Below, in pieces: positions 1 to 14,136 of a stretch of DNA of 22,772 nucleotides. Position 1 is the first letter of the stretch; each line of letters begins with the position of its first letter. The DNA is from a virus. A program made the translations under genes and the position numbers. The notes under the pieces are model-generated. The model had not been told where the DNA came from and made no database searches. It worked only from the letters and a program-made list of their open reading frames with translations. The DNA is taken from IMG/VR virus record IMGVR_UViG_3300009506_000200, positions 1-22,772 of that record. One strand, written 5' to 3'.

Positions 1-1929
1 TTCATCTGTTCCCACTTTGATTAGGGAAATAGAGTTACCTTTTCCAATAATGGTATAACTCTGCGGTGAACCGAGATCTGGTGAGTTTATGGTCACAGGA
101 GGACTACCAACAGATGAAATAGTTGTTGCACCAGTTCCTGCTTGGTGTACAATAACCTCAGTACCAATTGCAAATGGCACCTCAATATTTGCAGGAACAT
201 AAACAGTGTTGGCTGCTGCATTTGTCATACGAACGTATATTCCTGCGTCTGCCAACGTTAGAGTGTAAGCCGTACCCGACTGCGTGTTGATTGTTAAAGG
301 TGTATAGCTTGCCTCATTTGGAAGACGGTAGTATGCACCATTCACATACACAATCAGGTTTCCTGCAGCAGGCGAACCACCACCTTCAATTGCAATCTGT
401 CCGTCTCGATCAGCCGCACCAGCAGGGATAGAGCCAGTATCGTAAACTGGAATATCTGGACTTACGTGTTCAAGTGTTCTTGGATTTGCCCCTGGATTTG
501 CACGGTGGAACCTTGCCTTGTAGCCATCCTCACCAGCTGTTAACATTACACCCCAGTTGGTTGTATCATCAAGATTGGCTTGTGTTGAACTTGTTCGCAA
601 CATGTTGGCGGACATAACAGCATATCGACCATCAATCATGTTACCAAAACGATGCCGTGTGTTCCAGCCAACTGGCTGGAAAGCAATGCTTGATGTTTTG
701 CTAGTGGCACCAGCATAGTGCACAAGACTTGGTTCATCGTCATTGACTGTGGTTGTGAAAGGACCATGTGCAGAACTATACTTGTTCATGCCATATGTTA
801 GATCGGTCGTAGAGCTACCAATGAACCAACTGCAAGAGCTAAAGTGGTTACCAATTACTTCGGAACGATATGACTTGTCGATATAGATACCATTTGCGAT
901 ATCTGGTGCTGGTGAACCAGTTGCTACACCAGGATTGATCACATTGCGTTGCATCGTAAATTCAATACGTCGGGTACCAGCATCTTCACCAATGCTAATA
1001 TTCTTACCAGTTTGATTTTCAAAATAGTTGTTAAGAATTAAGACCGACTCGGACTGAGCTGCAGAGCCAACATCAAGTCTCAGACCAATAGCATTGCCTT
1101 CAAAATCATTGTGAACGATTCCAGTACCAGCCATACTACCCTCGATCCACAAACCATAACCACCATTTGCAAGGAATGCGTTATTCTGGAAATAGAGGTG
1201 ATCGTTGTAGGCACCATATAGTGTACCATCGTCAAAATGCACACCATGTCCAACGTTACTACTGAAACGGTTACGAATATAGTTTGTTGCATAACAACCG
1301 GTAGCTTCAACACCATTGCCACCACACTGTTCAACACGAAGACCTTCTAGTAAAAGCCCCTGCATTCGAATAAGTTGGATACCGTGAGATGTCGTTCCAT
1401 TACCGATCAATCGGAAATTACGAAGACGTACATCGGCGGTTTGATTAGCTGTGGTATTACCAACGGTAATGGCAACACCACCTGTAACATTGTGATCAAG
1501 AACAGACTTGTGACCAGAACCAACGATAGAGATATCAACCGCACCACTTATTACAACACCTGTTGTTAGCAACCATGTGCCTGCTGGAAGATAAATGACA
1601 CCACCAACACCATTGGCTGTTAGTGTATCAATGGCATTTTGTAGTGCACTTGAACTACTTGTTGCACCTGTTGGATCTGCATCATTGAAATCTGTGATGC
1701 TCACACGCTCCTGCAGACGCTCTTTCAGGGTGCGTGTTGATGCTGCGGTAGCTGGAGGGCTACCAACAGCAGTCCAGTTTGGTGTGTATTGCAACAATCC
1801 AATATCAACGGTTGGCAATCCCACAACTGGTGGCGAGCCAATAGCTTCCAGACGAAGCAAATCCCCAGCCGATGTCCCAGCCAGGGATGCAATATCTATC
1901 TGGAGATCTTGAATGAGTGGTTGTGCCAT
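1..1929 (-). CDS. Tail spike with right-handed beta-helix (C-terminus cut by window edge)
   Basis: The frame is open for 643 codons from an ATG at 1929 to the window edge, so the C-terminus is missing. Residues 1-75 look like a virion-attachment region. From about residue 76 the motif VSITDFNDADPTGATS, then GGVIYLPAGTW, marks the entry to a pectate-lyase-type parallel beta-helix. Regular Asn/Gly-rich coils follow (for example NYIRNRF, LYFQNNAF, LILNNYFEN). The last visible part (ATTISS, then YTIIGKGNSISLIKVGTDE) resembles the beta-rich C-terminal domain seen in many fibres. Tail spikes with this fold bind and often cleave host surface polysaccharide; I cannot identify catalytic residues or the sugar. 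Gly-Ser-Pro occurs six times (residues 31, 56, 338, 518, 608, 620). It is the last visible gene of the fibre cluster, starting 3 bases after the previous stop. Fold call is strong; enzymatic activity is unproven. Confidence 0.85.
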   Translation of the reverse strand, partial: MAQPLIQDLQIDIASLAGTSAGDLLRLEAIGSPPVVGLPTVDIGLLQYTPNWTAVGSPPATAASTRTLKERLQERVSITDFNDADPTGATSSSSALQNAIDTLTANGVGGVIYLPAGTWLLTTGVVISGAVDISIVGSGHKSVLDHNVTGGVAITVGNTTANQTADVRLRNFRLIGNGTTSHGIQLIRMQGLLLEGLRVEQCGGNGVEATGCYATNYIRNRFSSNVGHGVHFDDGTLYGAYNDHLYFQNNAFLANGGYGLWIEGSMAGTGIVHNDFEGNAIGLRLDVGSAAQSESVLILNNYFENQTGKNISIGEDAGTRRIEFTMQRNVINPGVATGSPAPDIANGIYIDKSYRSEVIGNHFSSCSWFIGSSTTDLTYGMNKYSSAHGPFTTTVNDDEPSLVHYAGATSKTSSIAFQPVGWNTRHRFGNMIDGRYAVMSANMLRTSSTQANLDDTTNWGVMLTAGEDGYKARFHRANPGANPRTLEHVSPDIPVYDTGSIPAGAADRDGQIAIEGGGSPAAGNLIVYVNGAYYRLPNEASYTPLTINTQSGTAYTLTLADAGIYVRMTNAAANTVYVPANIEVPFAIGTEVIVHQAGTGATTISSVGSPPVTINSPDLGSPQSYTIIGKGNSISLIKVGTDE

Positions 1930-1932
1930 ATC

Positions 1933-2487
1933 TTACAAAGCACCTAAGGCAGAGATTGTGGTATCACGTACAGATAGAATTTCTGCTTCATCCATTGCAT
2001 CATCGATATCATTCTTACCCTTGAGACGAATTTCTTCAATCGCAGCACCTGCGGTGATCCAAGCTGACTTCTTGGCAAGAATGCGATCGGCAACTTCAGT
2101 TGCAGTTTCACCTAAAGCATTCATTTCTGCTTGTATGAAGGGATAGGATGAGACATCTGCTGGATAACCAGCAGCAACAAAATCAGCCGCTTCATCACTT
2201 TTTTCGGAGTACGTCATTGCTTGCCCTGTTCCCCATGTGATGAAACGTAGCCGTGCTTGTTCTGCAGCTCGGTCTATATTTGCTTTTGCATCTGTTCTCT
2301 TTTGAGTAAGATCCGTGGGATTTGCGACCTGCCAATCAGCCCACGCTTGTTCAAGGGTAGCAGTATCTGGTTCCGGGTCAAGATGGTGCCAATCCCTCAG
2401 AAAAACAGTTCCATCGTCCTTTACGTGAACCTCAAAATCTTCCACATTTGTGTAACCAAGCTGTTCAAGTGCCAAAATAATATTCAT
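1933..2487 (-). CDS. Tail-fibre assembly-like / XkdW-like protein, 184 aa
   Basis: Residues 1-55 have the pattern of small tail proteins of the XkdW/fibre-assembly type: an Asn-Ile-Ile start, an acidic VKDDGTVFLRDW stretch, then PEPDTATLEQAWADW. The rest is mostly helical and Ala-rich. It contains ARLRFITWGTGQAMTY and a YPFIQAEMNALGETATEVA segment, a pattern I associate with phage fibre-tip or assembly proteins. No Gly-Ser-Pro is present, unlike its neighbours. It lies between a short fibre gene and the tail spike, which fits a chaperone or a spike-attached adaptor. An RBS (AAGGT) overlaps the upstream stop codon. The family assignment comes from memory of sequence style, so the exact role is uncertain. 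Confidence 0.6.
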   Translation of the reverse strand: MNIILALEQLGYTNVEDFEVHVKDDGTVFLRDWHHLDPEPDTATLEQAWADWQVANPTDLTQKRTDAKANIDRAAEQARLRFITWGTGQAMTYSEKSDEAADFVAAGYPADVSSYPFIQAEMNALGETATEVADRILAKKSAWITAGAAIEEIRLKGKNDIDDAMDEAEILSVRDTTISALGAL

Positions 2488-2498
2488 GTTAATGTACC

Positions 2499-3188
2499 TT
2501 AGAATTTAACAAGACGTGCGTATACGTACCAGTTTGAACCCGTTAGACCCGTGTACCCGCCAACGGCACTAGTTTTTCCAGAAATACCAAATCCTGTATA
2601 TGCAAGAGTGAACCATACGTTCGTGGTGTTCCACGTGAGCAAGTTACTAGTACGATGTGCACCACTTGTCTCGTCGAAGTCATGGACAGATGGGTTAATT
2701 ACAACATAATCACCAACGTTAAAGCCAAATTCGGCACCAACGCAGTAAAGAACAAGTTGTCCTATGTCAGGGTAGCCTCCCAGTCCATGTGCATATGCCC
2801 CCTTCAACACACCATAAGCCGAACTTAAAACAACAGCTGGTGTAGTATACACTGTACCACTGCCACCACCTGCAACAGCTGCTTGAACAAATGCTGTTGT
2901 TGCAAGTTTTGTGGAGTTGTCGGCACCTGCCTGTGTTGGAGCCGTTGGATTTCCAGTGAATGCTGGACTTGCTAGTTTTGCCCAGCTAGCTGCAGCCACA
3001 CCACCTAACGCATTAGAGTTGCTTGCTGTTGTAGCAGTTGTGGCAGTTGTTGCACTGGTTGCTGTCGCAGCATTTCCAGAAATGCTTATTGCATACGTTC
3101 CGGTCAATCTAGCGGACGCAACAGTTCCTGTCAGCTTAGCAGCATCAAGGCTCTCTATTTGTCCACTTCTTATTGTTTGCTGTGCCAT
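2499..3188 (-). CDS. Short tail-fibre protein, 229 aa
   Basis: The N-terminal 35 residues have the usual fibre style (IRSGQIESLDAAKLTGTVAS). They are followed by an Ala/Thr low-complexity stretch at about 40-56 and the common shaft motif ASPAFTGNPTAPTQAG with KLATTAFVQAAV at about 72-105. Residues 114-229 form a globular tip homologous to the C-terminus of the fibre encoded at 6427-7530. Shared features are HGLG..PD, VL.C..AE.G..VGD, and an ending NW..Y...V.F. Such tips normally touch the receptor. This is the only fibre in the cluster with no Gly-Ser-Pro tripeptide. The RBS AAGGT overlaps the upstream stop (TAAGGT). The fibre call is firm; the receptor is unknown. Confidence 0.8.
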   Translation of the reverse strand: MAQQTIRSGQIESLDAAKLTGTVASARLTGTYAISISGNAATATSATTATTATTASNSNALGGVAAASWAKLASPAFTGNPTAPTQAGADNSTKLATTAFVQAAVAGGGSGTVYTTPAVVLSSAYGVLKGAYAHGLGGYPDIGQLVLYCVGAEFGFNVGDYVVINPSVHDFDETSGAHRTSNLLTWNTTNVWFTLAYTGFGISGKTSAVGGYTGLTGSNWYVYARLVKF

Positions 3189-3199
3189 TTTATGCTACC

Positions 3200-4219
3200 T
3201 TATAGTTCGTAAATTGCAACATCATCGCTTAGCGTTAGACCTGCAGTGAATGTAATTTGGTTTGCACCTGTTACGGTATAGCTTGCACCAGCACCATACT
3301 TTTGCAGAATACCATTAACAAATACTTGTATGTATACCTTACCACCGGATGGTGCAACAGTGGAAACATATGTTGTGTTAAAAATTGTCTGTCCAGCACC
3401 TGCAACAAACTCATCAATGTTGATACCTGTCAATGCACCAGGTGCCTTGTTCGTCCACCTGTTTGTGGCAGCCACATATGTTAAAACATCACCATTGATA
3501 GGCAAAGGTGAACCTGTTACTTCTACATCTGTAAGCTCACCAAGTGTGACACCAAAGGCTGAAACGTTAATCCAGTCTCCTGGCATTCCAGCTGAAAAGC
3601 AAACTGGTGAACCAAACTTTCTTGGAACAAACACGCGAAGAGCAGGAGTTGTCTTGTCATACCATAGCTGTCCAGGAACCGGATTTGGAATGATGTTTGG
3701 ATCAACGCGCTCTGGAGGAGAACCAATTGCATATGAGGCAAAGTTTTCCATCAGGTGCAACAAGTTTTCATTGATCAGTTCACCGTAGTTTAGTACGCCT
3801 CGTCCTGGTAGCTCCAAACTTGTGTCTGTGTTTGTTGATGCAGCTGGAATAACGATGGTTGATGATGCACATTTGGTATCTGTGAACTGCAGGTTGTATG
3901 CACCACCAAGCAATCCTGTCCATGCACCAGCAGGTGTGGAAATATTTTGACATAGTGGAGAGCCTGTAGGAACAACAGGTGGTGAACCTGGGCAATAGGG
4001 AACAATTTTTGTTGTACCACCACTATAGGAAGAAGATCCTACGGTAAATGTGGTTGCGGTAGAAACTGCAGGTGACCCAGAACCCGAATCCCAAGCAACA
4101 ATACCAAATCCAGCCACAAACATGGCTGTGAAGTTGCCCGGAATCTCAAAGTATCCATCAGTGTGAGCTGTAGACCCATTGATAATTGGATAGTATGCTA
4201 CTGTTGCTGCTGCCGTCAT
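3200..4219 (-). CDS. Tail-fibre-like virion protein, 339 aa
   Basis: Residues 1-130 are a Ser/Thr/Pro-rich beta-type region not present in the two sister fibres. Residues 136-161 then carry the shared fibre signature: G.G..NYGE, ENLLHLMENFA. GQLWYDKTTPALRVFVP follows. The C-terminal part (about 255-339) contains VFVNGILQKYGAGASYTVTG and ITFTAGLTLSDDVAIYEL, a beta-sandwich module common near fibre ends. Gly-Ser-Pro occurs six times (48, 78, 86, 166, 203, 236), including one just after the HLMENF signature and one after VPRKF. It follows the 732-residue fibre with an RBS (AAGGA) overlapping that gene's stop. Function: host contact or a tail accessory; the exact position in the virion is unknown. 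Confidence 0.75.
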   Translation of the reverse strand: MTAAATVAYYPIINGSTAHTDGYFEIPGNFTAMFVAGFGIVAWDSGSGSPAVSTATTFTVGSSSYSGGTTKIVPYCPGSPPVVPTGSPLCQNISTPAGAWTGLLGGAYNLQFTDTKCASSTIVIPAASTNTDTSLELPGRGVLNYGELINENLLHLMENFASYAIGSPPERVDPNIIPNPVPGQLWYDKTTPALRVFVPRKFGSPVCFSAGMPGDWINVSAFGVTLGELTDVEVTGSPLPINGDVLTYVAATNRWTNKAPGALTGINIDEFVAGAGQTIFNTTYVSTVAPSGGKVYIQVFVNGILQKYGAGASYTVTGANQITFTAGLTLSDDVAIYEL

Positions 4220-4228
4220 GTTTATTCC

Positions 4229-6427
4229 TTATGTCAATATAAATTCGAGTACATCTGAACCAGATAGACTATCATTTAGTGTTACCACGTTAGCGGTTGA
4301 TCCTGGAGCTGCCAGTCCACCACCCACCAATGGTGAAAGATCAAATACACCATCTGATTCATAATAGCCATACGTTGCACCGGCGACAGGTGTACCACCC
4401 CTGAGGAAACTCTGGAATCCAGCATCGCCTAGGTTGTTACTAGCAAATAGGTCCCTGGTTGGTGGTGAACCAACCAAATTGGAATATGCCACACCGATGC
4501 CTGGTAGCTGCTGTGACTGAACACGAATGTTTGTACCAATCAAATAAACGGTGGCGGTATTTGCACCAAACGTAGTATCTATGGCTGTCTGCATTGCTGA
4601 AACCAAGTTGCCAAATGTTTGAGCATCGAACGCATTAACAGGACCAACTTCGTGGACATCCGGAGAACCAATGCCATCTAGGTTCAAATTAAAAACATAG
4701 TCAAGTCCTAGCTGTCCGTCACCAACGGCGGTTGCTGGAATTGTGCCTGTAACAGTAATACGAGTCTGCCCTGGTGAACTATCGTAAACAACCGATGCAG
4801 CTGTATAATAAGCATTTGGATCGGGTGATCCACCACCCGTATCACCTTGGATCTGGAAATTATTACCCGTCTCAATGTCCGCAGTGTGATCTCCATCTAC
4901 AATCCATACTCCGCTTGCACCAGTCACCACACCAGATATTGTCAAGAGGGTTAGTCCTGCTGTTGCACCCGCACTTTCAAGGGCACTGGAAAATATTGCA
5001 TCGTCGTAAGCTATATTGTCGTGATATAGTTTAACACCATTCTTGAATACCATAAGACGGTTTGTACCAGCTTGATATGAGAATGGAAGTGTGAATGTTG
5101 TTGCTAGTCCCAGCAGGAACTCAGAATCCAACGATGTTGCGATCCATCGCTGCGCTGCTGTTGCTGTGCTTGATACTGCCGCACTCACGGCTGCATCAAC
5201 ATACGCCTTGTTGGCAGCATTGGTCAATGGTGACGTGCCAGTCAGGTTTGGTACTGTTACATCACCCGTGAATGTTGGATTGTTATATGGAGCCGCAGCT
5301 AACAAAGCTGCATCTACTGTTGATGCTGGTTCTGTACCACCAACAAGACCACCAACAAATGGAATGTTGTTTGAATCAACACCAGTGATGTACAAGCTGC
5401 CAAGAGGTCCTGGGGAGCCCGTTGTTGAATAGTTAAGTGTGATTGTGCCCGAAGAAGGTGAACCAAGAATACCAAATGAACCAGCATTGACAAAGGTATC
5501 TCCAACTATTGCCCCTGAGAATAAGTCATCAACGTATTTCTTATTTGGGATGTCATTGTTGGCAGCAATTGCAGTCTCATAAGAAGCTAACGTAACAGAT
5601 AGAATACCACCTGTGCTAACCTCAACTAGAGATGTTCCAGCATACTTTGCCTGTAGTGCACCACCATTGGCAACTTCCCACTCAAGTGGAGAACCTGTCG
5701 CACCAAGTTGCACTGTTGCATTTGCACCAACCAAAGACAACGTTGGTGTGGCTTTGGATATAGCAAGATCACCAGTCAAGGGACCATTTGAGGTATCCAG
5801 TAGTAGATATGCACCAACCGTTGCCGTTAACAAAGCTGTTACGGCTGTTAGGTCTGGTAGCACATCCCAAGCACTGCCGTCATAAATCTGTAGTTCCTTC
5901 GTAGGAACAATTGTTGGGAATCCTGTACCTTCTGCATAAAGACGTGGAATCCACTGATTAATACTACCAGTGGCAGAAGAGGATGAATACTGGTAAAGAA
6001 TGTTTGGAGAGCCGGTATTGTCAAACCAGTAATCACCATCTGACTTTGATGCTGGTTCTAGTCCAACTGTAACAGAAAGTGGTACCGGATTCCAACCCGC
6101 AGGAGAACCTGTTCCATCATACACATAAAATGTGGGTCCAGCAATATCATTGTAGTACAGAACCTCTTTGTGCCAAAGCATTCCTGGAATTTTAATAACA
6201 GGTTCAGAGGCACCAGAAAAATTTTCAAGAAGGTGAAGAAGGTTTTCATCTGTTCTTTCACCATAGTTTGGATGTCCTTTACCATACAACAGCAAACATG
6301 AGCTTGCTGTGACAGATGAATCATTCAGAGCAGAGGTCGTAGGGAACTTAGGTCCATTGGACGTGTATGGACGAATGATAAAATCATCATGAAGAGGGTC
6401 TGTACGGTTTATGATATAATTGCTCAT
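4229..6427 (-). CDS. Large tail-fibre protein, 732 aa
   Basis: The N-terminus has the shared signature LLLYGKGHPNYGE followed by ENLLHLLENF at about 46-70. Next come short beta repeats (YVYDGT...GWNPVP near 101-116; IYDGSAWDVLPDL near 181-193). Two shaft-like joints of the NKKYVDD (about 295) and NAANKAYVDAAV (about 403) type follow. A beta module (about 450-500) contains RLMVFKNGVKLYHD, and the C-terminal region is beta-rich. Eight Gly-Ser-Pro tripeptides are spread along it (107, 139, 245, 322, 337, then three more after residue 540). The start ATG overlaps the stop of the upstream fibre gene as TAATG, so the two are probably translationally coupled and made in fixed ratio. The fibre call is solid; receptor specificity cannot be read. 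Confidence 0.82.
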   Translation of the reverse strand: MSNYIINRTDPLHDDFIIRPYTSNGPKFPTTSALNDSSVTASSCLLLYGKGHPNYGERTDENLLHLLENFSGASEPVIKIPGMLWHKEVLYYNDIAGPTFYVYDGTGSPAGWNPVPLSVTVGLEPASKSDGDYWFDNTGSPNILYQYSSSSATGSINQWIPRLYAEGTGFPTIVPTKELQIYDGSAWDVLPDLTAVTALLTATVGAYLLLDTSNGPLTGDLAISKATPTLSLVGANATVQLGATGSPLEWEVANGGALQAKYAGTSLVEVSTGGILSVTLASYETAIAANNDIPNKKYVDDLFSGAIVGDTFVNAGSFGILGSPSSGTITLNYSTTGSPGPLGSLYITGVDSNNIPFVGGLVGGTEPASTVDAALLAAAPYNNPTFTGDVTVPNLTGTSPLTNAANKAYVDAAVSAAVSSTATAAQRWIATSLDSEFLLGLATTFTLPFSYQAGTNRLMVFKNGVKLYHDNIAYDDAIFSSALESAGATAGLTLLTISGVVTGASGVWIVDGDHTADIETGNNFQIQGDTGGGSPDPNAYYTAASVVYDSSPGQTRITVTGTIPATAVGDGQLGLDYVFNLNLDGIGSPDVHEVGPVNAFDAQTFGNLVSAMQTAIDTTFGANTATVYLIGTNIRVQSQQLPGIGVAYSNLVGSPPTRDLFASNNLGDAGFQSFLRGGTPVAGATYGYYESDGVFDLSPLVGGGLAAPGSTANVVTLNDSLSGSDVLEFILT

Positions 6428-7530
6428 TAGAATGCTACCGCCTTAATGTAGATGCGCCAGTTGGCTGCTGTGATACGTCGTTCATCATTGGCGCCCGTCA
6501 TCGTGTGCTGGTGAATATAGATGCTTGGCTGTCCACCAGTATCGGAGCCCTTTCTTGTTGCACGAACCACAACCTGTGATGTACTTATTTCAACCGTTAT
6601 ACCTTCTGCGTTATCCTGGTCAGCTGTTGTTTGTGTGCCTGCAAATCCAGCACTAATCAAAATTCTATCACCAACAGAATAACCATACTCGGCTGTAGTA
6701 CATTGCAGAACAACCTTAACTAGATCTGGCTCAACACCAAGTCCATGGTTCCACGTGTTTGTATATCCAATTGCTATTGCAGCACTTGAACTTGACTTAT
6801 ATCCAGCACCAACAGCATTTGCTAATGTTACCTTTCTGTGGGTTGCACCATCATATGTCATCACATAGTCGGTGCTAGCTGGTGATGCATCAGTTGACAA
6901 ACTTGGAATATCAATATTCAGAGTTCGTGATGCAGCTATTGTGCCACCACCAGAAAGACCAGTTCCTGCACTAATGCTGACAGATGCGTGGTTGATGTGT
7001 TCGTTTGTTACGAAACCGGTTAGCTGATCGTGGTTGACTTGGTCTGCACCACCTGATTCGTGCCGCGTTGCGTGAGCGCTAACATCAACACCATCTACCA
7101 GACCAGATACTGTAATGTTGCTTGCCGATACGGTTGTAACTGTTAGTGTCCCAACATTGGAAATATTGTTCCCTGTCATGTTGAGAGTACCTGTCATCGA
7201 GTCACCTGAGACATCAACGAAGGAACCAGAACCTGCGCCTGCTGTAACCAACGTAGACCAAGCAGGGGAACCACCAACGTAAACTTTCAGCAGGTTGGTT
7301 GACTTATCCCACCAAAGCTGTCCTTCGAGTGGAAAATCGGGCTCTGTTGAGTTTGCGAAATTTTCTAGAAGATGGACAAAGTTCTCATTCCATGCTTCAC
7401 CATAATTTCTCTTGCCTTTCCCATATAGGGTGAGATCCAACACACCTCCTACCACGCCAGCGGGCAAAACGGTGTTATTTGGGATGGTGACGAGCAAGGT
7501 ACCATCTGTAAGATTAATGCTATATGCCAT
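6427..7530 (-). CDS. Tail-fibre protein, first gene of fibre operon, 367 aa
   Basis: Residues 34-58 carry LYGKGKRNYGE and ENFVHLLENFA, then GQLWWDKSTNLLKVY. A Gly-Ser-Pro occurs at 87-89. The central part has MTGTLNMTGNNI and HESGGADQVNHDQLTGFVTN followed by SAGTGLSGGG (about 157-196), standard fibre shaft modules. Residues 233-367 form a tip homologous to that of the 229-residue fibre four genes on. The start is the ATG at 7530, with AGGGA as RBS, 34 bases downstream of an exact late-promoter octamer. It is therefore the promoter-proximal gene of the fibre operon and should be strongly expressed late. Confidence 0.82.
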   Translation of the reverse strand: MAYSINLTDGTLLVTIPNNTVLPAGVVGGVLDLTLYGKGKRNYGEAWNENFVHLLENFANSTEPDFPLEGQLWWDKSTNLLKVYVGGSPAWSTLVTAGAGSGSFVDVSGDSMTGTLNMTGNNISNVGTLTVTTVSASNITVSGLVDGVDVSAHATRHESGGADQVNHDQLTGFVTNEHINHASVSISAGTGLSGGGTIAASRTLNIDIPSLSTDASPASTDYVMTYDGATHRKVTLANAVGAGYKSSSSAAIAIGYTNTWNHGLGVEPDLVKVVLQCTTAEYGYSVGDRILISAGFAGTQTTADQDNAEGITVEISTSQVVVRATRKGSDTGGQPSIYIHQHTMTGANDERRITAANWRIYIKAVAF

Positions 7531-7563
7531 ATGAAATCCCTAGAGTTCGCTTATACTTCAATG

Positions 7564-7571
7564 TATTTATA
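7564..7571 (-). promoter_or_regulatory. T4-type late promoter (TATAAATA)
   Basis: An exact TATAAATA, the T4 late-promoter octamer, is read on the minus strand. It lies just after the stop of the zinc-finger gene and 34 bases before the ATG of the first fibre gene. By the T4 rule (octamer at about -13 to -6) transcription would start near 7558, giving a leader of about 27 bases. It would need the phage late sigma factor and co-activator, which are not in this window. Confidence 0.8.
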
Positions 7572-7576
7572 TTTAT

Positions 7577-8257
7577 TTACAGGTTCATTTCAGCGACTAT
7601 TTCCTTCATCATTTTAACGAATTCGGGTTTCTTTTGGAATTGAGTTCCCCAGTACTTGGGGCGCATGAGAGTTTCCAGAACGATCTTCTGTTCTGTGCTC
7701 GTTCTGTCACGGAAGAACATCATGAATTTGGCACTGTGAAGCAAAATCCATGGCGACAGTTTGCGTTCTTTGATAAGCTCAATGATCTCGTTTGGATTCA
7801 ATTCTGCGAAGATATTCTCCGTTTTGCAGTCGAGAATGTCTGATAGGCGCAGAAGTGTATCCACCGTGATTTGAGCATGGTCGTGTGGAGAAGCAACTCG
7901 ATCAAGGTGCTCCATGTACATTGAATATGGACGCTCGCTTGTCCACATGGTTGGAGGGAAATCCTTGTCAATCATCAGCTTGATGAAAGTATCAGGTTTT
8001 GGCAGGTTGAGCTTTCTTACAAGCTCTGCGAATCGATTGAACGATTCAAAATAACGCGATTTCAGGAAAGTCTTATCATTGGGTACACGCTTACGCTGAA
8101 ACTTCATCCAGTCTTGATAGTACCGCCACGCAGCTTGTCCAATAGGCGTGCGAAGTCTCTCTTCGCGAATCATCGCTTTGCACTTGTGCTTGATGAACCT
8201 ATTTTCGTGCTGAAACCTCTTATGGCAGAAGTGGCAGACGTAGGGTGCGTCTTTCAT
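7577..8257 (-). CDS. C2HC zinc-finger phage protein, 226 aa, unknown function
   Basis: The N-terminus has a single probable zinc finger: C8-x2-C11, then H24 and C26 (YVCHFCHKRF, then FIKHKC). The rest is a basic, helix-rich region of about 190 residues without a motif I can name. Its ATG overlaps the stop of the probable gp62 gene (ATGA), so it is the last gene of the gp44 operon. In T4 the slot after gene 62 holds the translational repressor regA, but this protein is almost twice RegA's length (122 aa) and does not resemble it. A nucleic-acid-binding role is plausible from the finger and charge. That is inference only. Confidence 0.75.
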   Translation of the reverse strand: MKDAPYVCHFCHKRFQHENRFIKHKCKAMIREERLRTPIGQAAWRYYQDWMKFQRKRVPNDKTFLKSRYFESFNRFAELVRKLNLPKPDTFIKLMIDKDFPPTMWTSERPYSMYMEHLDRVASPHDHAQITVDTLLRLSDILDCKTENIFAELNPNEIIELIKERKLSPWILLHSAKFMMFFRDRTSTEQKIVLETLMRPKYWGTQFQKKPEFVKMMKEIVAEMNL

Positions 8258-8736
8258 CGTGTTTTGAGTTCTTTCTTCAGTTTCGTGATAACGTCTTTTT
8301 GTCTTCCCAAGTGTTCAGCATACTCGATAATATCGTCGTTTGACAACAGAGGCATTGCTTCTAGTGCTTGTTTTGTATTGTAGCCAAACACTTCCCGGAG
8401 AACCGAAACTGCGGTTGGTGTCTTATTTGACTTAGATGAAACTGTCTTGTTCCAAAAGTATCGCTGAGACTTGCCTGGTCCACAAAGCGTCATCAATTGA
8501 TACAACAGCTGAGGATGCTTGTGCAGGGAGAACACAAATGGATTTACCAGCTCGTTAATGAAGTAAATCTGCTTTGCGCTGGATGTGCCTGATAACCATC
8601 TGGACACAACGACAGGCAAGAAGCCTTTCTTCTCCTCATCGTTGAGACTGCGGTAGTACCTAGTATCTTTTGTGCTTATCTTTCCAAGCACTGTAAAGAT
8701 ATCAAGTTTTCTTTCAGTTGTCTTTTTTGCTGCCAC
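8254..8736 (-). CDS. 62: Probable clamp-loader small subunit (gp62-like), 160 aa
   Basis: The pattern FLPVVVSRWLS, then FINELVNPF, then LYQLMTLC with a SQRYFWNK segment, and a final helix pair LREVFGYNTKQALEAMPLLS matches the layout of gp62-type subunits in marine T4-like phages as I remember it. In those, similar positions read YVPF..NR.LS, NEMN, KKRF.W and a KA.EAL..L end. T4 gp62 is 187 residues and forms the clamp loader with four gp44 subunits to load the gp45 clamp. Being in the gp44 operon supports the call. The start is GTG at 8736, since no ATG precedes the conserved part; the first 23 bases overlap the previous gene. An unrelated operon protein is the main alternative. Confidence 0.6.
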   Translation of the reverse strand: MAAKKTTERKLDIFTVLGKISTKDTRYYRSLNDEEKKGFLPVVVSRWLSGTSSAKQIYFINELVNPFVFSLHKHPQLLYQLMTLCGPGKSQRYFWNKTVSSKSNKTPTAVSVLREVFGYNTKQALEAMPLLSNDDIIEYAEHLGRQKDVITKLKKELKTR

Positions 8737-9061
8737 GAGGAATGCTTATCTTCTTATAACAGAATTTGCACACGACGTGTGTGCCATTATGCACAAGCTG
8801 CTCAAACGGATGAACACATTCTTGAACCATTGCATTTCGAAGAACTTGGATCCGATCGAACACTTCTTGCTTTTGCAAGCTCAGTTCCATGATTTTATCT
8901 TCAATGGGTCGCAGTTCAGCAAGCAACGACACCATATTGTTCATCTTGCGATTCCACGATGTTTTCTCGCTACGGTTTGCAGTATTAGCAACCTTCTCAA
9001 GAACTCGACGCTCTTCTGCCTGTTTGGTTGTCTCGTCTACGGGTTTCTTTTTTCTTGCCAT
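8714..9061 (-). CDS. Coiled-coil protein with C-terminal zinc-ribbon-like motif, 115 aa
   Basis: Residues 1-80 are highly charged and helical (probable coiled coil, MNNMVSLLAELRPIEDKIME). The C-terminus has a possible zinc site: CVHPFEQLV, then VVCKFCYKKI, that is C-x2-H ... C-x2-C. I do not recognise the family. The ATG at 9061 overlaps the previous stop as TAATG, and its own end overlaps the gp62-like start. This places it firmly in the clamp-loader operon. A DNA- or RNA-contacting role is only a guess from the motif. Confidence 0.7.
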   Translation of the reverse strand: MARKKKPVDETTKQAEERRVLEKVANTANRSEKTSWNRKMNNMVSLLAELRPIEDKIMELSLQKQEVFDRIQVLRNAMVQECVHPFEQLVHNGTHVVCKFCYKKISIPRGSKKDN

Positions 9062-9336
9062 TATACTTTTCCTAGCTTGCGAAGTGCAAGGCTTACTTCA
9101 TGCCACCAGCTTGCTTCAATGTAATACTCAAGACTGATACCATCTTCGTAGGTGGTTCCTGGTTCATCTCCGAAGTCTTGGTCGCAACCCTCACAAAAGT
9201 CGCGGTAATGCATCTCAATTGGTATTAAAGCTTCCATCAACTCATTGAGAGCTTCAAGGTTCGGCGTATCTTCTATTCCTTTCTGAACCTTTTGGAGGTA
9301 GCGCTGAGCAATTTCAATGTCGTCTTTAATGGACAT
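9061..9336 (-). CDS. Small acidic protein, 91 aa, unknown
   Basis: It begins MSIKDDIEIAQRYLQKVQ and is predominantly helical and acidic, with two cysteines (FCEGCDQDFGDEPG). The first six residues, MSIKDD, are identical to the start of the UvsY-like protein elsewhere in the window, probably by chance. The ATG overlaps the upstream stop (TAATG). I do not recognise it. It is supported as a gene by tight coupling on both sides and a normal operon position. Confidence 0.7.
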   Translation of the reverse strand: MSIKDDIEIAQRYLQKVQKGIEDTPNLEALNELMEALIPIEMHYRDFCEGCDQDFGDEPGTTYEDGISLEYYIEASWWHEVSLALRKLGKV

Positions 9337-9626
9337 TAGACATCCTTCAAAAAAGACATCGCGTGATCGTATCGGTCCGTGGCGTCCTTGCCATCGTCCT
9401 TCTTCACAACAATATCAAGCTCGACGTGCTCAACTGGACGGTGAAGTAACAGTCTTACATCAACTGTCACTTCTTGTGGACCAGCAACCCAAGTGCTCAA
9501 ACTGTTTCCCATGACTTCCATTTCCTGAGCACACGAATCAACGTTTACATCTACACCAACAACATGAGCATCAAAACCAAGGTCCTGAATGTATTTGTTG
9601 ATTCCTTCTAGTGTGTCGGCGTACAT
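9336..9626 (-). CDS. Small protein, 96 aa, unknown
   Basis: It is a mixed alpha/beta protein with a beta-rich centre (VVGVDVNVDSC, VTVDVRLLLHRPVEHVELDI) and a charged C-terminal helix. No motif is recognised. Start and stop are both TAATG-type junctions with its neighbours, which argues strongly for real translation within the gp44 operon. Confidence 0.7.
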   Translation of the reverse strand: MYADTLEGINKYIQDLGFDAHVVGVDVNVDSCAQEMEVMGNSLSTWVAGPQEVTVDVRLLLHRPVEHVELDIVVKKDDGKDATDRYDHAMSFLKDV

Positions 9627-10048
9627 TACAGTCCCTTCATAGCCCGATCGTATGCGGTTTCTGGCGTATCGATGTCAAGCTTTACGTCCATCTTCATTAT
9701 TCCCTCGACAAGGTCTCCGGACATCGGCTGAACGTCAACAAGAGTTTTTGCCATCTCATTCATGTTCAATGAGACCACAGTAGAAAGCTCAATTTTCATC
9801 CTTTCTATTTCTGCTTTCAGCTGTTCCATTTCAGCGTCCATTGGATTGTGCCATTCCATTTTTATTGGAGCGATACATTCACCGTAGGAAGGCGCAACCG
9901 CCTGATCAATACCCGCTTCTGCCGTGCCATAAGGGCTCTGTGTTAGAAGGGGCTGCTGCAGAACCTCGTTCATGAAGCTCGAGTCTTTGTCGAAAATACC
10001 ACGATTCTTAATTTGGTCGTACCACCAGTTTGGTTCACCTGTTGCCAT
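9626..10048 (-). CDS. Protein of 140 aa, unknown, directly after gp44
   Basis: The N-terminal half is Pro/Gln/Gly-rich (GEPNWWYDQIKNRGIFDK; QQPLLTQSPYG). It is followed by a coiled-coil-like helix (AEMEQLKAEIERMKIELS) and a short beta region ending KLDIDTPETAYDRAMKGL. The RBS is AAGGA, 7 bases before the ATG. It takes the place immediately after gp44, where T4 has gene 62, but it has no gp62-like features. It may be a structural or replisome accessory protein; I cannot tell which. Confidence 0.72.
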   Translation of the reverse strand: MATGEPNWWYDQIKNRGIFDKDSSFMNEVLQQPLLTQSPYGTAEAGIDQAVAPSYGECIAPIKMEWHNPMDAEMEQLKAEIERMKIELSTVVSLNMNEMAKTLVDVQPMSGDLVEGIMKMDVKLDIDTPETAYDRAMKGL

Positions 10049-10066
10049 GTCTTTTCCTTATTGTTA

Positions 10067-10993
10067 TTATAGTGTGGAGAGACGAATGAACATTGCAGCC
10101 GCATTGATCTCTGGATCAGCAACAATACCGTGCTTGTACAGATGATCAGCGATCACAACAATACCTTCCTCCCATTTTGCCTGTTCGCTAAACTTGACTG
10201 ACTTGTCTAAGTTTTCATACAGGAAACGATAAACGGGTTCCCACTCTTCCGCAGCGACGTTTGCGCAGAGCAGTTTGCGAATAGCCAACCAATCGTCGGC
10301 TGTTAGCAGTTCCAGCATCTGGAACTTGTAGTCACCAGTCTCAACTTCAGTTGGCGCCTGTAGTTGTCCATCGATAACATTTTGCTGCAGTGTATTGATA
10401 ATCTTTCGAATATCAGGATATCCAGCAGCAACATACTTATATAGAAGCGTTTCGTTGAACTTTACCTTCTCGGAGATAAGAATGGTCGCAACACGCTCTG
10501 CAACGTCGTCTTTGTCGAATGCGTGGAAACGAAATTGCTGACAACGAGACTTGACTGGTGAGATAATCTTGTGGTCGTAGTTGCAAGTCAAAATGAAACG
10601 AGCAACATCAGCATACTCTTCCATCATTTGGCGAAGAGTCGCCTGCGCAGCTTGTGACAAGTAATCTGCCTCTTCCAACTGAACAACCTTAAAAGGACCG
10701 AGCGCCCAGGAAGAAACAAACCCCTTAATCTTCTCTCTCATCGTGTCAACAGAGTTCTCATCTGATGCGTTGACCAACAGGATGTCGGTTGGGTCAAGAT
10801 CGAGAGACCTTACGAGCATCTTCGATAGGGTCGTCTTACCAGAACCCTGAACACCAGAAAGAAGCAAGTGGGGAATGCTACCTTCACCTATCATGCGAAG
10901 GATAGCACGCTTTTGGGATTCGTCTTGCCAGATGTATTCTTCTACGGTTTGGGGTCGATATTTCTCGACCCAAAGTTTTTGTAAATCTGCCAT
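10067..10993 (-). CDS. 44: Clamp-loader ATPase large subunit (gp44)
   Basis: This is an AAA+ ATPase of 308 residues, close to T4 gp44 (319). Visible motifs are the N-terminal WVEKYRPQTVEEYIWQ box typical of RFC/gp44 proteins, Walker A GVQGSGKT (47-54), a Walker B region VVQLEEAD (103-110), sensor 1 LTCN (135-138) and the SRC arginine-finger motif (149-151). A helical collar domain follows. Four gp44 subunits with one gp62 open and load the gp45 sliding clamp. The Walker B reads LEEAD where RFC-type proteins usually have a DE.D box, though the catalytic Glu and following acidic residue remain. It starts at ATG 10993 with AAGGAG as RBS and has its own consensus promoter just upstream. Confidence 0.93.
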   Translation of the reverse strand: MADLQKLWVEKYRPQTVEEYIWQDESQKRAILRMIGEGSIPHLLLSGVQGSGKTTLSKMLVRSLDLDPTDILLVNASDENSVDTMREKIKGFVSSWALGPFKVVQLEEADYLSQAAQATLRQMMEEYADVARFILTCNYDHKIISPVKSRCQQFRFHAFDKDDVAERVATILISEKVKFNETLLYKYVAAGYPDIRKIINTLQQNVIDGQLQAPTEVETGDYKFQMLELLTADDWLAIRKLLCANVAAEEWEPVYRFLYENLDKSVKFSEQAKWEEGIVVIADHLYKHGIVADPEINAAAMFIRLSTL

Positions 10994-11013
10994 ATAATTC
11001 TCCTTGTCAGGAT

Positions 11014-11041
11014 ATTATACAGCATACGCGAAGAATGTCAA
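11014..11041 (-). promoter_or_regulatory. Consensus sigma70 promoter for the gp44 operon
   Basis: On the minus strand the -35 box TTGACA (11041-11036) and -10 box TATAAT (11019-11014) are both perfect, with a 16-base spacer. The start of transcription would be near 11007, leaving a short leader with AAGGAG ahead of the gp44 ATG at 10993. It fills almost the whole 58-base gap after the LamG-type gene. It should be used by unmodified host polymerase, that is, early in infection. Confidence 0.85.
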
Positions 11042-11051
11042 CTAGCCAACA

Positions 11052-12320
11052 TTATGGTCCATAAGGATATGCTGGTGGGGTAAAGTTGCTTGTCCAGCGT
11101 GGTGTTCCGACACTGAAACGGAACTCATCAATATATCCATCCATTGAGTTTGGTGGATATATCACTCCCGAAACATAGATGCAACCAAGACGCAAGGATG
11201 TTGTTGAATCAAAAATACTATCCGTGCTAATGTTAAACGTACTGCCAATCTGTGTGCCGTCAACAAAAAAGCGAAGGTCTGCTCCATTACGTGTAACTGC
11301 AACATGGTACCAAGTGTTTAGAGAAGGTGTAAAAGTACCTGCACCAGAAGTAGCAATCGTATTTGTTGAGCCATCAGTTGAGTAAGTTAGCTGGAGTTTG
11401 TTGTCGGTGTTGATGTATGCAAATCCCCATGCTTTCTGGTTTGAGGATCCACCATCAAATTGGGAGGCCATAAAGTTTCCATTTTGGAAACTAGTAAAGT
11501 TAACCCAGCAGTCGATAGCAAAGTCACTTGTTCCGAGCGTCCAGTCCGTATCATCCGCTGAGGCAACTTCGTCAATTTGTGGAGATCCTGACCATGTTCG
11601 TATAGACGTTGCACCAAACTTTGCTTTGGCTGTGCTGTGGTGTGCACCATTGAGCATTGATACTGTGTGAGGACTATGTGTGCCACCCACACTGCTATCC
11701 ACGGCTGAAGTATCACCTTCGAACGTATCCGAATGTATCAATAGTCTGGTAAACGTATCGTTGCCAGCAACAGTATTCCATGTGTATTCGTTAGGGAGGG
11801 ATATCTCAAATGGGCCCACATCATATTTTTGCCCTGCCACTATATTGACATCATCAAGCGTTAGATCTCCCAAAGGAGATCCTGTTCGGGCTGAGATTGT
11901 ACCCACAATAGCAGGCAAATACTTCCCGTCAGGATTTCCCGGAGCTGGTCCCGGTATTACTGGATCGTACAAGGTATTTCCAGACCAAATCCACCAAGTT
12001 GCCACTCCACTCTGAATTGCAGGTATAACTTGATGCGGCCAGTAAATTTTACTGTTTGACTCAATTGGTGTCTGTCCTCCACCAATTACCACCCATTCTA
12101 TCAGTACGTCGTTTGGTGAGCCAACAATTCTACTCTCCGTTGGATGTAGCGTATCAAGAGCCGATTGTGAGGGAATGGTTCCTTTCATAATGCGAAGCTT
12201 GGCAACACCAACAACACCAAAGGCGGGATATGATAAGTAAGTGTTGTTTCTTAAAATTCCACCAGAGGAAGTTCCCACAACTGCTGATACTGCGACAGAT
12301 GACAATTTGATTGTAGGCAT
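11052..12320 (-). CDS. Virion protein with C-terminal LamG/concanavalin-like domain, 422 aa
   Basis: Residues 1-185 are homologous to the 179-residue protein encoded at 13096-13635. Both share MPTIK/MATIK starts, a DVLIE/EVLIE segment, SGVA.WW.WSG, YDPV, D.NIVAGQ.Y..GP and a final P.EYT. From about 185 to the end is a LamG-like jelly-roll (Laminin_G_3/concanavalin style): LLIHSDTFEGDT, DFAIDCWVNFTS, LNTWYHVAVTRNG, LRFFVDGTQIGS, MDGYIDEFRFSVG and the usual ending PRWTSNFTPP. Such domains in phages are carbohydrate-binding adhesins. Three Gly-Ser-Pro tripeptides are present. An RBS (AGGAA) follows directly after the upstream stop. Most likely an extended, adhesive paralogue of the shorter protein. 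Confidence 0.75.
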   Translation of the reverse strand: MPTIKLSSVAVSAVVGTSSGGILRNNTYLSYPAFGVVGVAKLRIMKGTIPSQSALDTLHPTESRIVGSPNDVLIEWVVIGGGQTPIESNSKIYWPHQVIPAIQSGVATWWIWSGNTLYDPVIPGPAPGNPDGKYLPAIVGTISARTGSPLGDLTLDDVNIVAGQKYDVGPFEISLPNEYTWNTVAGNDTFTRLLIHSDTFEGDTSAVDSSVGGTHSPHTVSMLNGAHHSTAKAKFGATSIRTWSGSPQIDEVASADDTDWTLGTSDFAIDCWVNFTSFQNGNFMASQFDGGSSNQKAWGFAYINTDNKLQLTYSTDGSTNTIATSGAGTFTPSLNTWYHVAVTRNGADLRFFVDGTQIGSTFNISTDSIFDSTTSLRLGCIYVSGVIYPPNSMDGYIDEFRFSVGTPRWTSNFTPPAYPYGP

Positions 12321-12331
12321 TAGAATTTCCT

Positions 12332-12763
12332 TTAGTATGGTGTAAACCTAAACCCAAAGTAGGTCAGGGTGACAGGATTACCTGCCGTAAGTGATAGAGA
12401 GTCCAACCTTACTGCCGCCGTACCGGCTGTTGTGGAAACATCCCCCAACATCCATCCAAAACTACCAAAATTAACATAATGGGCAAACCACGCAGCTGTT
12501 CCTGTTGCTGTTGCGTTTACGGGGTTTACGGTTGGTGGGATGTACATAAAGAGCCCCTGCGGATCGAGAGAATCACTTTCGTAAAACCTATAACTTGTGA
12601 AAGTAGCAAGCAAGTCCGTGCCACCGGATGTCCACGTATCCGGATCGGCAGGCATTGTTCCCTTATAAATCTCAAGTACATTACGATTGGTCGTGGGATA
12701 GCATATATTTGATAATCCATCAGCCATCGCATTGCAAGCAGCAAAATTCATTAAAATTGTCAT
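12332..12763 (-). CDS. Virion-like protein A', 143 aa
   Basis: It is a clear paralogue of the 163-residue protein at 13645-14136. Shared features are an early NF/NFG, IEIY/LEIY followed by G.MPAD.D, LLATF..(F/Y)R, a TATGT/TATGTG segment before W(F/Y)A.Y, (L/M)LGD, LDSL(S)...AG.PV.L and a C-terminal G.RF. Predicted all-beta. It lacks Gly-Ser-Pro (at the paralogue's AGSPV this protein has AGNPV). The ATG overlaps the stop of the upstream gene (TAATG). A structural or adhesin role is inferred from its neighbours. Confidence 0.65.
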   Translation of the reverse strand: MTILMNFAACNAMADGLSNICYPTTNRNVLEIYKGTMPADPDTWTSGGTDLLATFTSYRFYESDSLDPQGLFMYIPPTVNPVNATATGTAAWFAHYVNFGSFGWMLGDVSTTAGTAAVRLDSLSLTAGNPVTLTYFGFRFTPY

Positions 12764-13095
12764 TATATTATACCAAGATCGGGGGAGCCTGTAACGTTAA
12801 TGACTTTGGCAACTAGCGGTAATGGTTGATCCTGAAAAGTACGAAACGAATCAACTGCACCAACATCGTTAAATGACACAAACGTTGCCAGTGATAGGTT
12901 GTCTTCAGGAGCACGAAGTGATGCCGCAACTGCCTGGTCCACAAAATGAATTACCGTTGCTGTTGTAACATCATTATCATCGGGAATTCGTAAGGAACCA
13001 CCCACTGTTTGATCTACGGCGCCACTTGGAAAAAAGAAAAGTCCGCCAAATCCTGTAGGAAGGGGTGGTAATTTTGTGATTACTATGACAGGCAT
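12763..13095 (-). CDS. Small repeat protein C, 110 aa
   Basis: After a hydrophobic, Pro/Gly-rich N-terminus, three degenerate repeats of about 25 residues are visible (27-51, 52-75, 76-101). The cores are VDQTVGGSLRIPDDN, VDQAVAASLRAPEDN and NDVGAVDSFRTFQDQ, each followed by a short beta strand. It ends INVTGSPDLGII with one Gly-Ser-Pro. Its ATG directly abuts the stop of gene B (TAA ATG, no gap), and its own stop overlaps the next ATG. I do not recognise the family. The repeats suggest a small beta scaffold on the virion. Confidence 0.65.
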   Translation of the reverse strand: MPVIVITKLPPLPTGFGGLFFFPSGAVDQTVGGSLRIPDDNDVTTATVIHFVDQAVAASLRAPEDNLSLATFVSFNDVGAVDSFRTFQDQPLPLVAKVINVTGSPDLGII

Positions 13096-13635
13096 TTAGT
13101 ACGTATACTCCCGTGGCAGTACAAACCTCGCCGGTCCCAACTCATATGTTTGCCCTGCTACTATGTTCAAATCAACAAGTGTCATTGAACCACCACCAGC
13201 AATTGCAGTGATGTCACCAATAAGAGCTGCTACATAATAGTTATCTGGAGCACCGGGAGCGGCACCCCTGTCGACAGGATCATAGTGTTCGTACCCCGAC
13301 CAACACCACCAAGATGCCACACCACTGCGAACAGCCGTTACTAATTCCAGGTCCCATGTTACATAGGTGACACCACCGGATGTGACGGATCCAAATTGAG
13401 CAGCGGTGTGTGCTCGTTCAATCAGAACCTCCGATGGCGATCCTGTAAACCGATCCCAAGTTGGGTATGCATTTTCTAGCTCATTCTGCGTAGGGATTGG
13501 GCCACTTAGAATTCGAAGGTATCCGTTGTAAGTAGAGTACGCAGCAAGCGCAGGTGTTCCAGCTGAACTACTTGTGATTCCAGTGGTCCCTGCTATGTTC
13601 TCTGCTATCCTTGTTGAAAATTTAATTGTGGCCAT
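13096..13635 (-). CDS. Virion-like protein B, 179 aa
   Basis: A beta-rich protein homologous to residues 1-185 of the LamG-bearing protein at 11052-12320. Conserved parts include LRI(L/M).G.IP, a GSP.(D/E)VLIE segment, SGVASWWCWSG, YDPVDRGAAPG, NIVAGQTYELGPA and PREYTY at the C-terminus. It stops where the paralogue continues into the LamG domain. One Gly-Ser-Pro is present. The RBS is AAGGAT, overlapping the upstream stop, 5 bases before the ATG. Probably a tail or fibre accessory; function unknown. Confidence 0.65.
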   Translation of the reverse strand: MATIKFSTRIAENIAGTTGITSSSAGTPALAAYSTYNGYLRILSGPIPTQNELENAYPTWDRFTGSPSEVLIERAHTAAQFGSVTSGGVTYVTWDLELVTAVRSGVASWWCWSGYEHYDPVDRGAAPGAPDNYYVAALIGDITAIAGGGSMTLVDLNIVAGQTYELGPARFVLPREYTY

Positions 13636-13644
13636 CGCTAATCC

Positions 13645-14136
13645 TTATGTTTGAAATCTAACACCCCAGTGCAACAGTTGCACCGGAGAACCTGCAACAA
13701 TTGATAATGAATCCAAATGAACTGATCCAGTTCCTCCTGAAATAGAACAATCTCCTAGCAGCGCTCCATGTGTTGCAAACCGTGTAGTATTGTACATCGC
13801 ATACCAAACTGCTATTCCTGTTCCTGTCGCCGTTACCGTTCCAGGGTTGGGTTCAAACCCACCAGTAAACATTGCTTCTTGTACATCTAGGTTATTACCG
13901 GTGGATGGAACTGTGTTTTGGGTTATTCTAAAATCTGAAAAGGTAGCTAACAGATTTGAAGTTGGAGATCCAGCACCGGGGTATCCAGAAAAGAAACTAT
14001 CGGCGTCAGCTGGCATTGGTCCAGCATATATTTCGATTCGATTGTTTGGTCCAGAAGCATCTATAAAAAATGCAGTGCTAACTAAGCCCCTTATCATTGA
14101 ATCATAAAAACCAAAATTTGCGCGTATGATAGCCAT
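13645..14136 (-). CDS. Virion-like protein A, 163 aa
   Basis: An all-beta protein and paralogue of the 143-residue protein at 12332-12763. Shared marks are IEIYAGPMPADAD, LLATFSDFRI, TATGTGIAVWYAMY, LLGD, HLDSLSIVAGSPVQL and GVRF at the end. Compared with its paralogue it has a longer loop containing GYPGAGSPTS; two Gly-Ser-Pro are present in total. Its ATG overlaps the stop of the membrane-protein gene as TAATG. It heads the A-B-C-A'-B' block, so this block is probably co-transcribed with the membrane protein. Confidence 0.65.
   Translation of the reverse strand: MAIIRANFGFYDSMIRGLVSTAFFIDASGPNNRIEIYAGPMPADADSFFSGYPGAGSPTSNLLATFSDFRITQNTVPSTGNNLDVQEAMFTGGFEPNPGTVTATGTGIAVWYAMYNTTRFATHGALLGDCSISGGTGSVHLDSLSIVAGSPVQLLHWGVRFQT

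Follow-up and report, generated by a model that had tools for sequence, protein, structure and literature searches.

The window analysed here, the whole 22,772-nucleotide stretch of IMG/VR virus record IMGVR_UViG_3300009506_000200, represents part of a jumbo T4-like phage genome; in it the tripeptide Gly-Ser-Pro (GSP) is scattered through tail-spike, fibre and other virion-like proteins. The enrichment is confined to this exact tripeptide and almost wholly to virion proteins, GSP is conserved through synonymous codon change amid varying loops, and several other jumbo phages lack the excess. Our favoured reading, which we put forward tentatively, is that GSP may be a short linear motif selected at the protein level on tail and fibre loops and recognised by another molecule, with modification of its serine as the first possibility. 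By UvsX, the closest isolated phages are Stenotrophomonas phages CM1 and RAS14 and Xanthomonas phage XacN1 (~45% identity). A 155-kb IMG/VR contig, G001, has a UvsX 83% identical to that of the window and keeps most of the gene order of window positions 7.5-22 kb; two other relatives that share the GSP excess are G002 (85% identity in the sheath) and G003 (~71% in a fibre).

Recounting the translations reproduced exactly the 28 GSP that a preliminary description had found in eight virion-like open reading frames (ORFs; 6, 6, 8, 1, 3, 1, 1 and 2), extending over positions 64-13971 on the minus strand, which carries all the window genes discussed here. Its zero in the other 20, non-virion ORFs was likewise reproduced; since only 0.5 GSP is expected there, that zero is uninformative by itself, and it is the virion excess that is informative. 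Two further virion-like ORFs (2499-3188 and 12332-12763) also lack GSP. For the ten virion-like ORFs together, composition predicts 1.7 GSP, and in 2000 within-protein shuffles the count averaged 1.7 and went no higher than 8; the dipeptide-preserving expectation, in which the GS and SP contributed by GSP are already included, was 7.8. GSP was the most enriched of all tripeptides in the window (16.5-fold), and it reached 14.8-fold in G001, with a like pattern among neighbouring words, and 11.3-fold in G011, a more distant jumbo phage. In the window GTP stood at 1.5-fold and GNP at 2.7-fold (3 cases), and other xSP or GSx words, apart from those seen only a few times, at about 1-fold. Across the window, G001 and G011, GTP ranged from 1.5- to 1.8-fold and GNP from 1.3- to 2.7-fold, GDP was absent from the enriched words and most other xSP and GSx words lay near 1-fold; altogether the other GxP, xSP and GSx words reached ~1-3-fold. 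The examples cited in the preliminary description, YDGTGSPAGWNPV against YDGSAWDV and RTGSPLGDLTL against IAGGGSMTL, are present in the translations. No collagen-like tandem Gly-X-Y triplets were found at the GSP sites, which are isolated and have unrelated flanks.

The signal belongs to the protein and not to the DNA. A degenerate GSP DNA pattern occurs 28 times in frame in the window virion genes and 0 times in the other two sense frames, and codon-shuffled versions of these genes gave 1.9 in-frame occurrences. The codons of GSP are varied, as described before, and follow the usage of the same genes: glycine and proline codons match background, and AGY serines are somewhat fewer (2 of 28 in the window, 16 of 71 in G001). 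The DNA flanking the sites has a mean pairwise identity of 29%. Restriction to the coding frame, unrelated flanks and ordinary codons together speak against a copied repeat, in agreement with the preliminary description, and against a DNA signal.

Orthologues of the window clade shared 37 GSP sites, and 22 comparisons were unshared, that is, only one of the two orthologues had GSP at the column. A slightly changed filter gave 38 shared sites, at which 59 of 114 codons differed synonymously, with no switch between AGY and TCN serines. Residues adjoining shared GSP were 53-55% identical, among the lowest values of the neighbourhood, and serine was retained within GSP at 47 of 52 aligned G001/G003 positions, compared with 447 of 747 for other serines of the same proteins. 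Synonymous codon change, poorly conserved neighbours and serine retention thus show that purifying selection holds GSP inside fast-changing loops.

The proposed location in flexible loops was supported in three ways. In orthologue alignments, 41% of GSP lay within 5 columns of a gap, compared with 8% of residues; in 39 sheath proteins, 30 of 42 GSP fell in columns containing 12% of residues; and an AlphaFold model of the G001 sheath (predicted local distance difference test, pLDDT, 74; best Foldseek match, T4-type sheaths) placed three GSP in a disordered loop (residues 204-222) and a fourth in the loop that leads into strand 290-295. Corresponding sheath loops of G001 and G002, TGSPLPGVGSPGGTPAGSPDVHNV and TGSPLPGSPNQAGSPGGDAHSV, carry three GSP each at shifted spacing. 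Another tail sheath, L082:4194-6098, has a tandem GSPAAGSPAHAGSPAAGSPAGSPAHAGSP tract at a loop position. In the 22 unshared comparisons, the GSP-bearing loop was mostly longer, by a variable amount: the length difference ran from -5 to +21, being +3 in 3 comparisons and +2 in 4, and 2 of the 22 were plain GTP/GSP substitutions of unchanged length. Exact in-frame micro-insertion of two or three residues, a mechanism suggested earlier, is therefore rejected as the general rule.

We compared complete or large contigs of jumbo phages. G001 carries 71 GSP where 10.1 are expected, nearly all in its tail sheath, baseplate, fibre, spike and endolysin-like protein, which supports the virion-specific restriction. 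The excess recurs in G002, in G003 (30 against 3.9) and in two phages more distant from the window, G011 (83 against 14.9) and G021 (46 against 10.3). Other complete jumbo phages, related and unrelated, stood at 0.8-1.2 times expectation; observed and expected counts were 15 and 17.5 in RAS14, 19 and 23.1 in XacN1, 20 and 19.0 in G010, 20 and 19.8 in G017, 34 and 30.5 in G018, 9 and 11.8 in G013, and 24 and 19.9 in 400 kb of LR756502. Regions of SCTP-2, Atu_ph07 and Phosso had GSP at or below about expectation, CBB had 5 against 2.2, and ~95 related IMG/VR loci pooled had 117 against 79. The GSP-normal phages rule out the excess as a general property of jumbo-phage virions, and the RAS14 and XacN1 homologues lack the sites, so the same GSP columns do not run through the family. 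In UvsX and sheath trees, GSP-poor phages fall between the window clade and G011, and at alignable sites the GSP positions of G001 and G011 do not coincide. These two observations suggest that the trait was gained repeatedly or is subject to rapid turnover, with less certainty for the tree part, in which some tips are partial loci with low expected counts.

Could the excess follow from protein make-up alone? Virion proteins are rich in glycine, serine and proline, and in the L082 sheath GSPAAGSPAHAGSP forms a tandem tract. The shuffles (1.7 against 28) and the neighbouring-word counts refute composition or low complexity, and GSP reaches only 0.7 times expectation in the similarly composed virion proteins of RAS14 and XacN1; we regard this explanation as practically negligible. 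Traces of a repeated 9-base insertion, a mobile micro-element at the DNA level later blurred by synonymous drift, would agree with the longer GSP loops in most unshared comparisons and with the few AGY serines of the window. Against such an element stand the spread of length differences (exactly +3 in only 3 of 22), gain and loss of GSP by substitution (GTP, GNP, GAP), the lack of any out-of-frame excess, the unrelated flanking DNA and the AGY codons at G001 sites; it is already largely refuted, and we consider it very unlikely.

The main rival is a structural loop preference, in which GSP would be a turn or loop cap that the beta-rich domains of this lineage's fibres and baseplate favour, unread by other molecules; we judge it possible, if somewhat doubtful. 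The sites do lie in indel-prone loops, often in a recurring beta-hairpin W/Y..GSP..W whose turn is shorter (NG or GS) in relatives without GSP, and the same W hairpin has GSP in several jumbo phages. Other lineages are enriched in other proline words (TPT and PTP in XacN1 and RAS14, GPQ in G021), and the pooled wider relatives show a mild excess. Many GSP sites, however, lie outside the W hairpin, the excess is missing from related phages that share the fold families, and Gly, Ser and Pro are each needed, GTP, GNP, GDP, ASP, SSP, GSA and GSG showing little or no excess. From turn and N-cap propensities, a turn defined by geometry only should accept T, N or D in the middle position. That this position refuses them weakens the structural explanation and speaks for another molecule that recognises GSP and whose chemical target is probably the serine. 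Recognition could also take the form of docking, with GSP as the binding site of a decorating, chaperone or adhesin-like protein of virion or host and no modification. The evidence for selection would serve this version equally, and it fits the multiple sites across sheath, baseplate and fibres and sheath clusters such as TGSPLPGVGSPGGTPAGSP. No lineage-specific binder candidate emerged from comparing small proteins of GSP-rich and GSP-poor genomes, the few confined to GSP-rich genomes being unannotated or peptide deformylase; docking alone appears improbable to us.

Under the reading we favour, a recognised linear motif, selection on the protein would keep GSP in the loops of tail, baseplate, sheath and fibre proteins, where another molecule would read it. 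The likeliest reader would be an enzyme of phage or host that modifies the serine covalently, by glycosylation or phosphorylation, and the next likeliest a coat or partner protein that docks there. Repeated along the tail, such sites would give the particle a decorated surface, which might alter adsorption or shield the particle. Of the roles first proposed for GSP, a recognition or modification site thus stands as one candidate, and traces of in-frame micro-insertions do not. A bolder form, which we hold to be rather unlikely as a whole, is a virion-wide code: a single tripeptide that recurs on sheath, baseplate and fibres, its sites coming and going as loops turn over, and whose serine a putative phage or host enzyme would modify, coating the tail exterior.

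Several observations weigh against a recognised and modified motif. Pfam scans of G001 proteins of at least 150 amino acids found no glycosyltransferase, and the family-2 glycosyltransferase PF00535 is absent from G001-G003, contigs that may be incomplete; on this ground the family-2 enzyme was set aside as the cause. A P4H-like 2OG-Fe(II) oxygenase of G001 was set aside, as it is not found in G011 or most of the others. The major capsid protein is not among the GSP-bearing ORFs of G001, although the capsid is exposed; a few GSP do occur in non-virion proteins; and the exposure of the GSP loops on the particle surface is itself a prediction. A trio of PrkA, DUF444 and SpoVR genes was the one candidate to track the trait, though with exceptions: all four GSP-rich genomes tested (G001, G003, G011 and G021) carry it, and RAS14, XacN1, G010 and G013 lack it. 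The trio also occurs in GSP-normal G017, and PrkA in GSP-normal LR756502, so that the PrkA serine kinase, which tracked the trait among near relatives, was rejected as the cause. At best the trio is necessary and not sufficient for the excess, and shared ancestry or host could explain the association.

The trio genes, PrkA (YeaG), DUF444 (YeaH) and SpoVR (YcgB), are adjacent in L010:1444-6345 (G001), L162 (G011), L163 (G003), L203 (G021) and G017:C1:309-5274. The G001 PrkA is 68% identical to a YeaG annotated in Enterobacter phage LAU1, and Ralstonia phage RsoM2USA has been reported to encode PrkA and SpoVR (PMC8504454). G001 (L009-L011) also encodes a caspase-like peptidase (Peptidase_C14), a ClpP-like protease, a tRNAHis guanylyltransferase (Thg1) and a peptide deformylase besides the oxygenase.

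As a kind, GSP resembles protein sequons such as N-X-S/T, short motifs scattered over many exported or surface proteins under selection at the protein level, and virion glycosylation has been reported for some phages; for GSP, modification is an inference. To our knowledge Gly-Ser-Pro is not a known sequon, and we know of no phage precedent for the strict use of one tripeptide throughout the virion. Literature searches on the GSP motif, GSP glycosylation and virion O-glycosylation, in a coverage that mostly leaves out subscription journals, found nothing relevant. Glycoproteins of the Burkholderia PglL system are exported, whereas phage virion proteins assemble in the cytoplasm, and no glycosyltransferase was found in the GSP phages scanned. 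PglL nevertheless offers a bacterial precedent for serine-only protein modification: its sites, like GSP, use serine nearly exclusively over threonine and are conserved between relatives, but they follow no strict tripeptide, favour alanine at -1 and were described in bacterial glycoproteins (PMC8423747).

Among phages, virion-like proteins of XacN1 (L223-L241) and RAS14 (L186-L202) are enriched ~7-10-fold in TPT, PTP and VTP, with short Thr-Pro-Val-Ser runs. These words are possibly a counterpart of GSP in another lineage. Like GSP, they are lineage-specific proline words strongly enriched in the virion-like proteins of related jumbo phages, but they form low-complexity T, P, V and S linkers of ~5-20 residues, where GSP usually stands as a lone tripeptide amid unrelated flanks. 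Phage fibres with collagen-like Gly-X-Y repeats likewise combine glycine and proline, and G021 is enriched in GPQ, PQG and QGP; such repeats are runs of triplets, whereas GSP occurs as isolated words.

Virion-like ORFs of the window and their GSP sites (positions in the window)
Product	Position	Strand	GSP	GSP positions	Family or remark
Tail-spike-like protein (beta-helix)	1..1929	-	6	64-72, 100-108, 370-378, 910-918, 1756-1764, 1831-1839	Pfam Beta_helix PF13229; PHROG tail spike
Tail-fibre-like protein	2499..3188	-	0		Exception inside the same block
Fibre-like virion protein	3200..4219	-	6	3506-3514, 3605-3613, 3716-3724, 3956-3964, 3980-3988, 4070-4078	phrog_15511 and phrog_14394 virion structural protein
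Fibre-like virion protein	4229..6427	-	8	4463-4471, 4661-4669, 4823-4831, 5411-5419, 5456-5464, 5687-5695, 6005-6013, 6101-6109	phrog_14394
Fibre-like virion protein	6427..7530	-	1	7264-7272	phrog_14394
Virion protein, C-terminal laminin-G-like domain	11052..12320	-	3	11580-11588, 11874-11882, 12114-12122	
Virion structural protein	12332..12763	-	0		phrog_3758; GNP where paralogue 13645-14136 has GSP
Small virion-block protein	12763..13095	-	1	12781-12789	Within C-terminal GSPDLGII
Virion-block protein	13096..13635	-	1	13435-13443	Paralogue of N-terminal part of 11052-12320
Virion structural protein	13645..14136	-	2	13684-13692, 13963-13971	phrog_3758

The block at 11052-14136 is a conserved small virion cassette between replication genes, and in it, as in L001:9461-12599 of G001, two paralogue families alternate (the N-terminal part of 11052 with 13096, and 12332 with 13645). 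All three GSP of the laminin-G-like protein are found in its G001 orthologue too, and the site at 13435-13443 is conserved in G001 and across both paralogues. The small protein at 12763-13095 is 37% identical to its G001 counterpart (L001:10485-10880), yet the C-terminal peptide GSPDLG[IF]I is common to both, reading GSPDLGFI in G001. In the protein at 13645-14136, the first site is GTP in G001 and the second is common to both, and the G001 orthologue has an extra GSP six residues upstream of the common site. An AlphaFold model of the window laminin-G protein was set aside (mean pLDDT 38.6). Searching isolated phages by tblastn with three window fibre or virion-block proteins gave no match or chiefly N-terminal modules, and bacterial genome contigs, used as a route to the host, yielded three distant sheath relatives only.

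A strict word selected across the tail of one particle, and dependent on lineage, would provide a handle on an unstudied chemical or protein decoration of phage tails. The GSP statistic is simple, so that any phage genome can be screened for it, and mass spectrometry has one precise prediction to check, at the serine.

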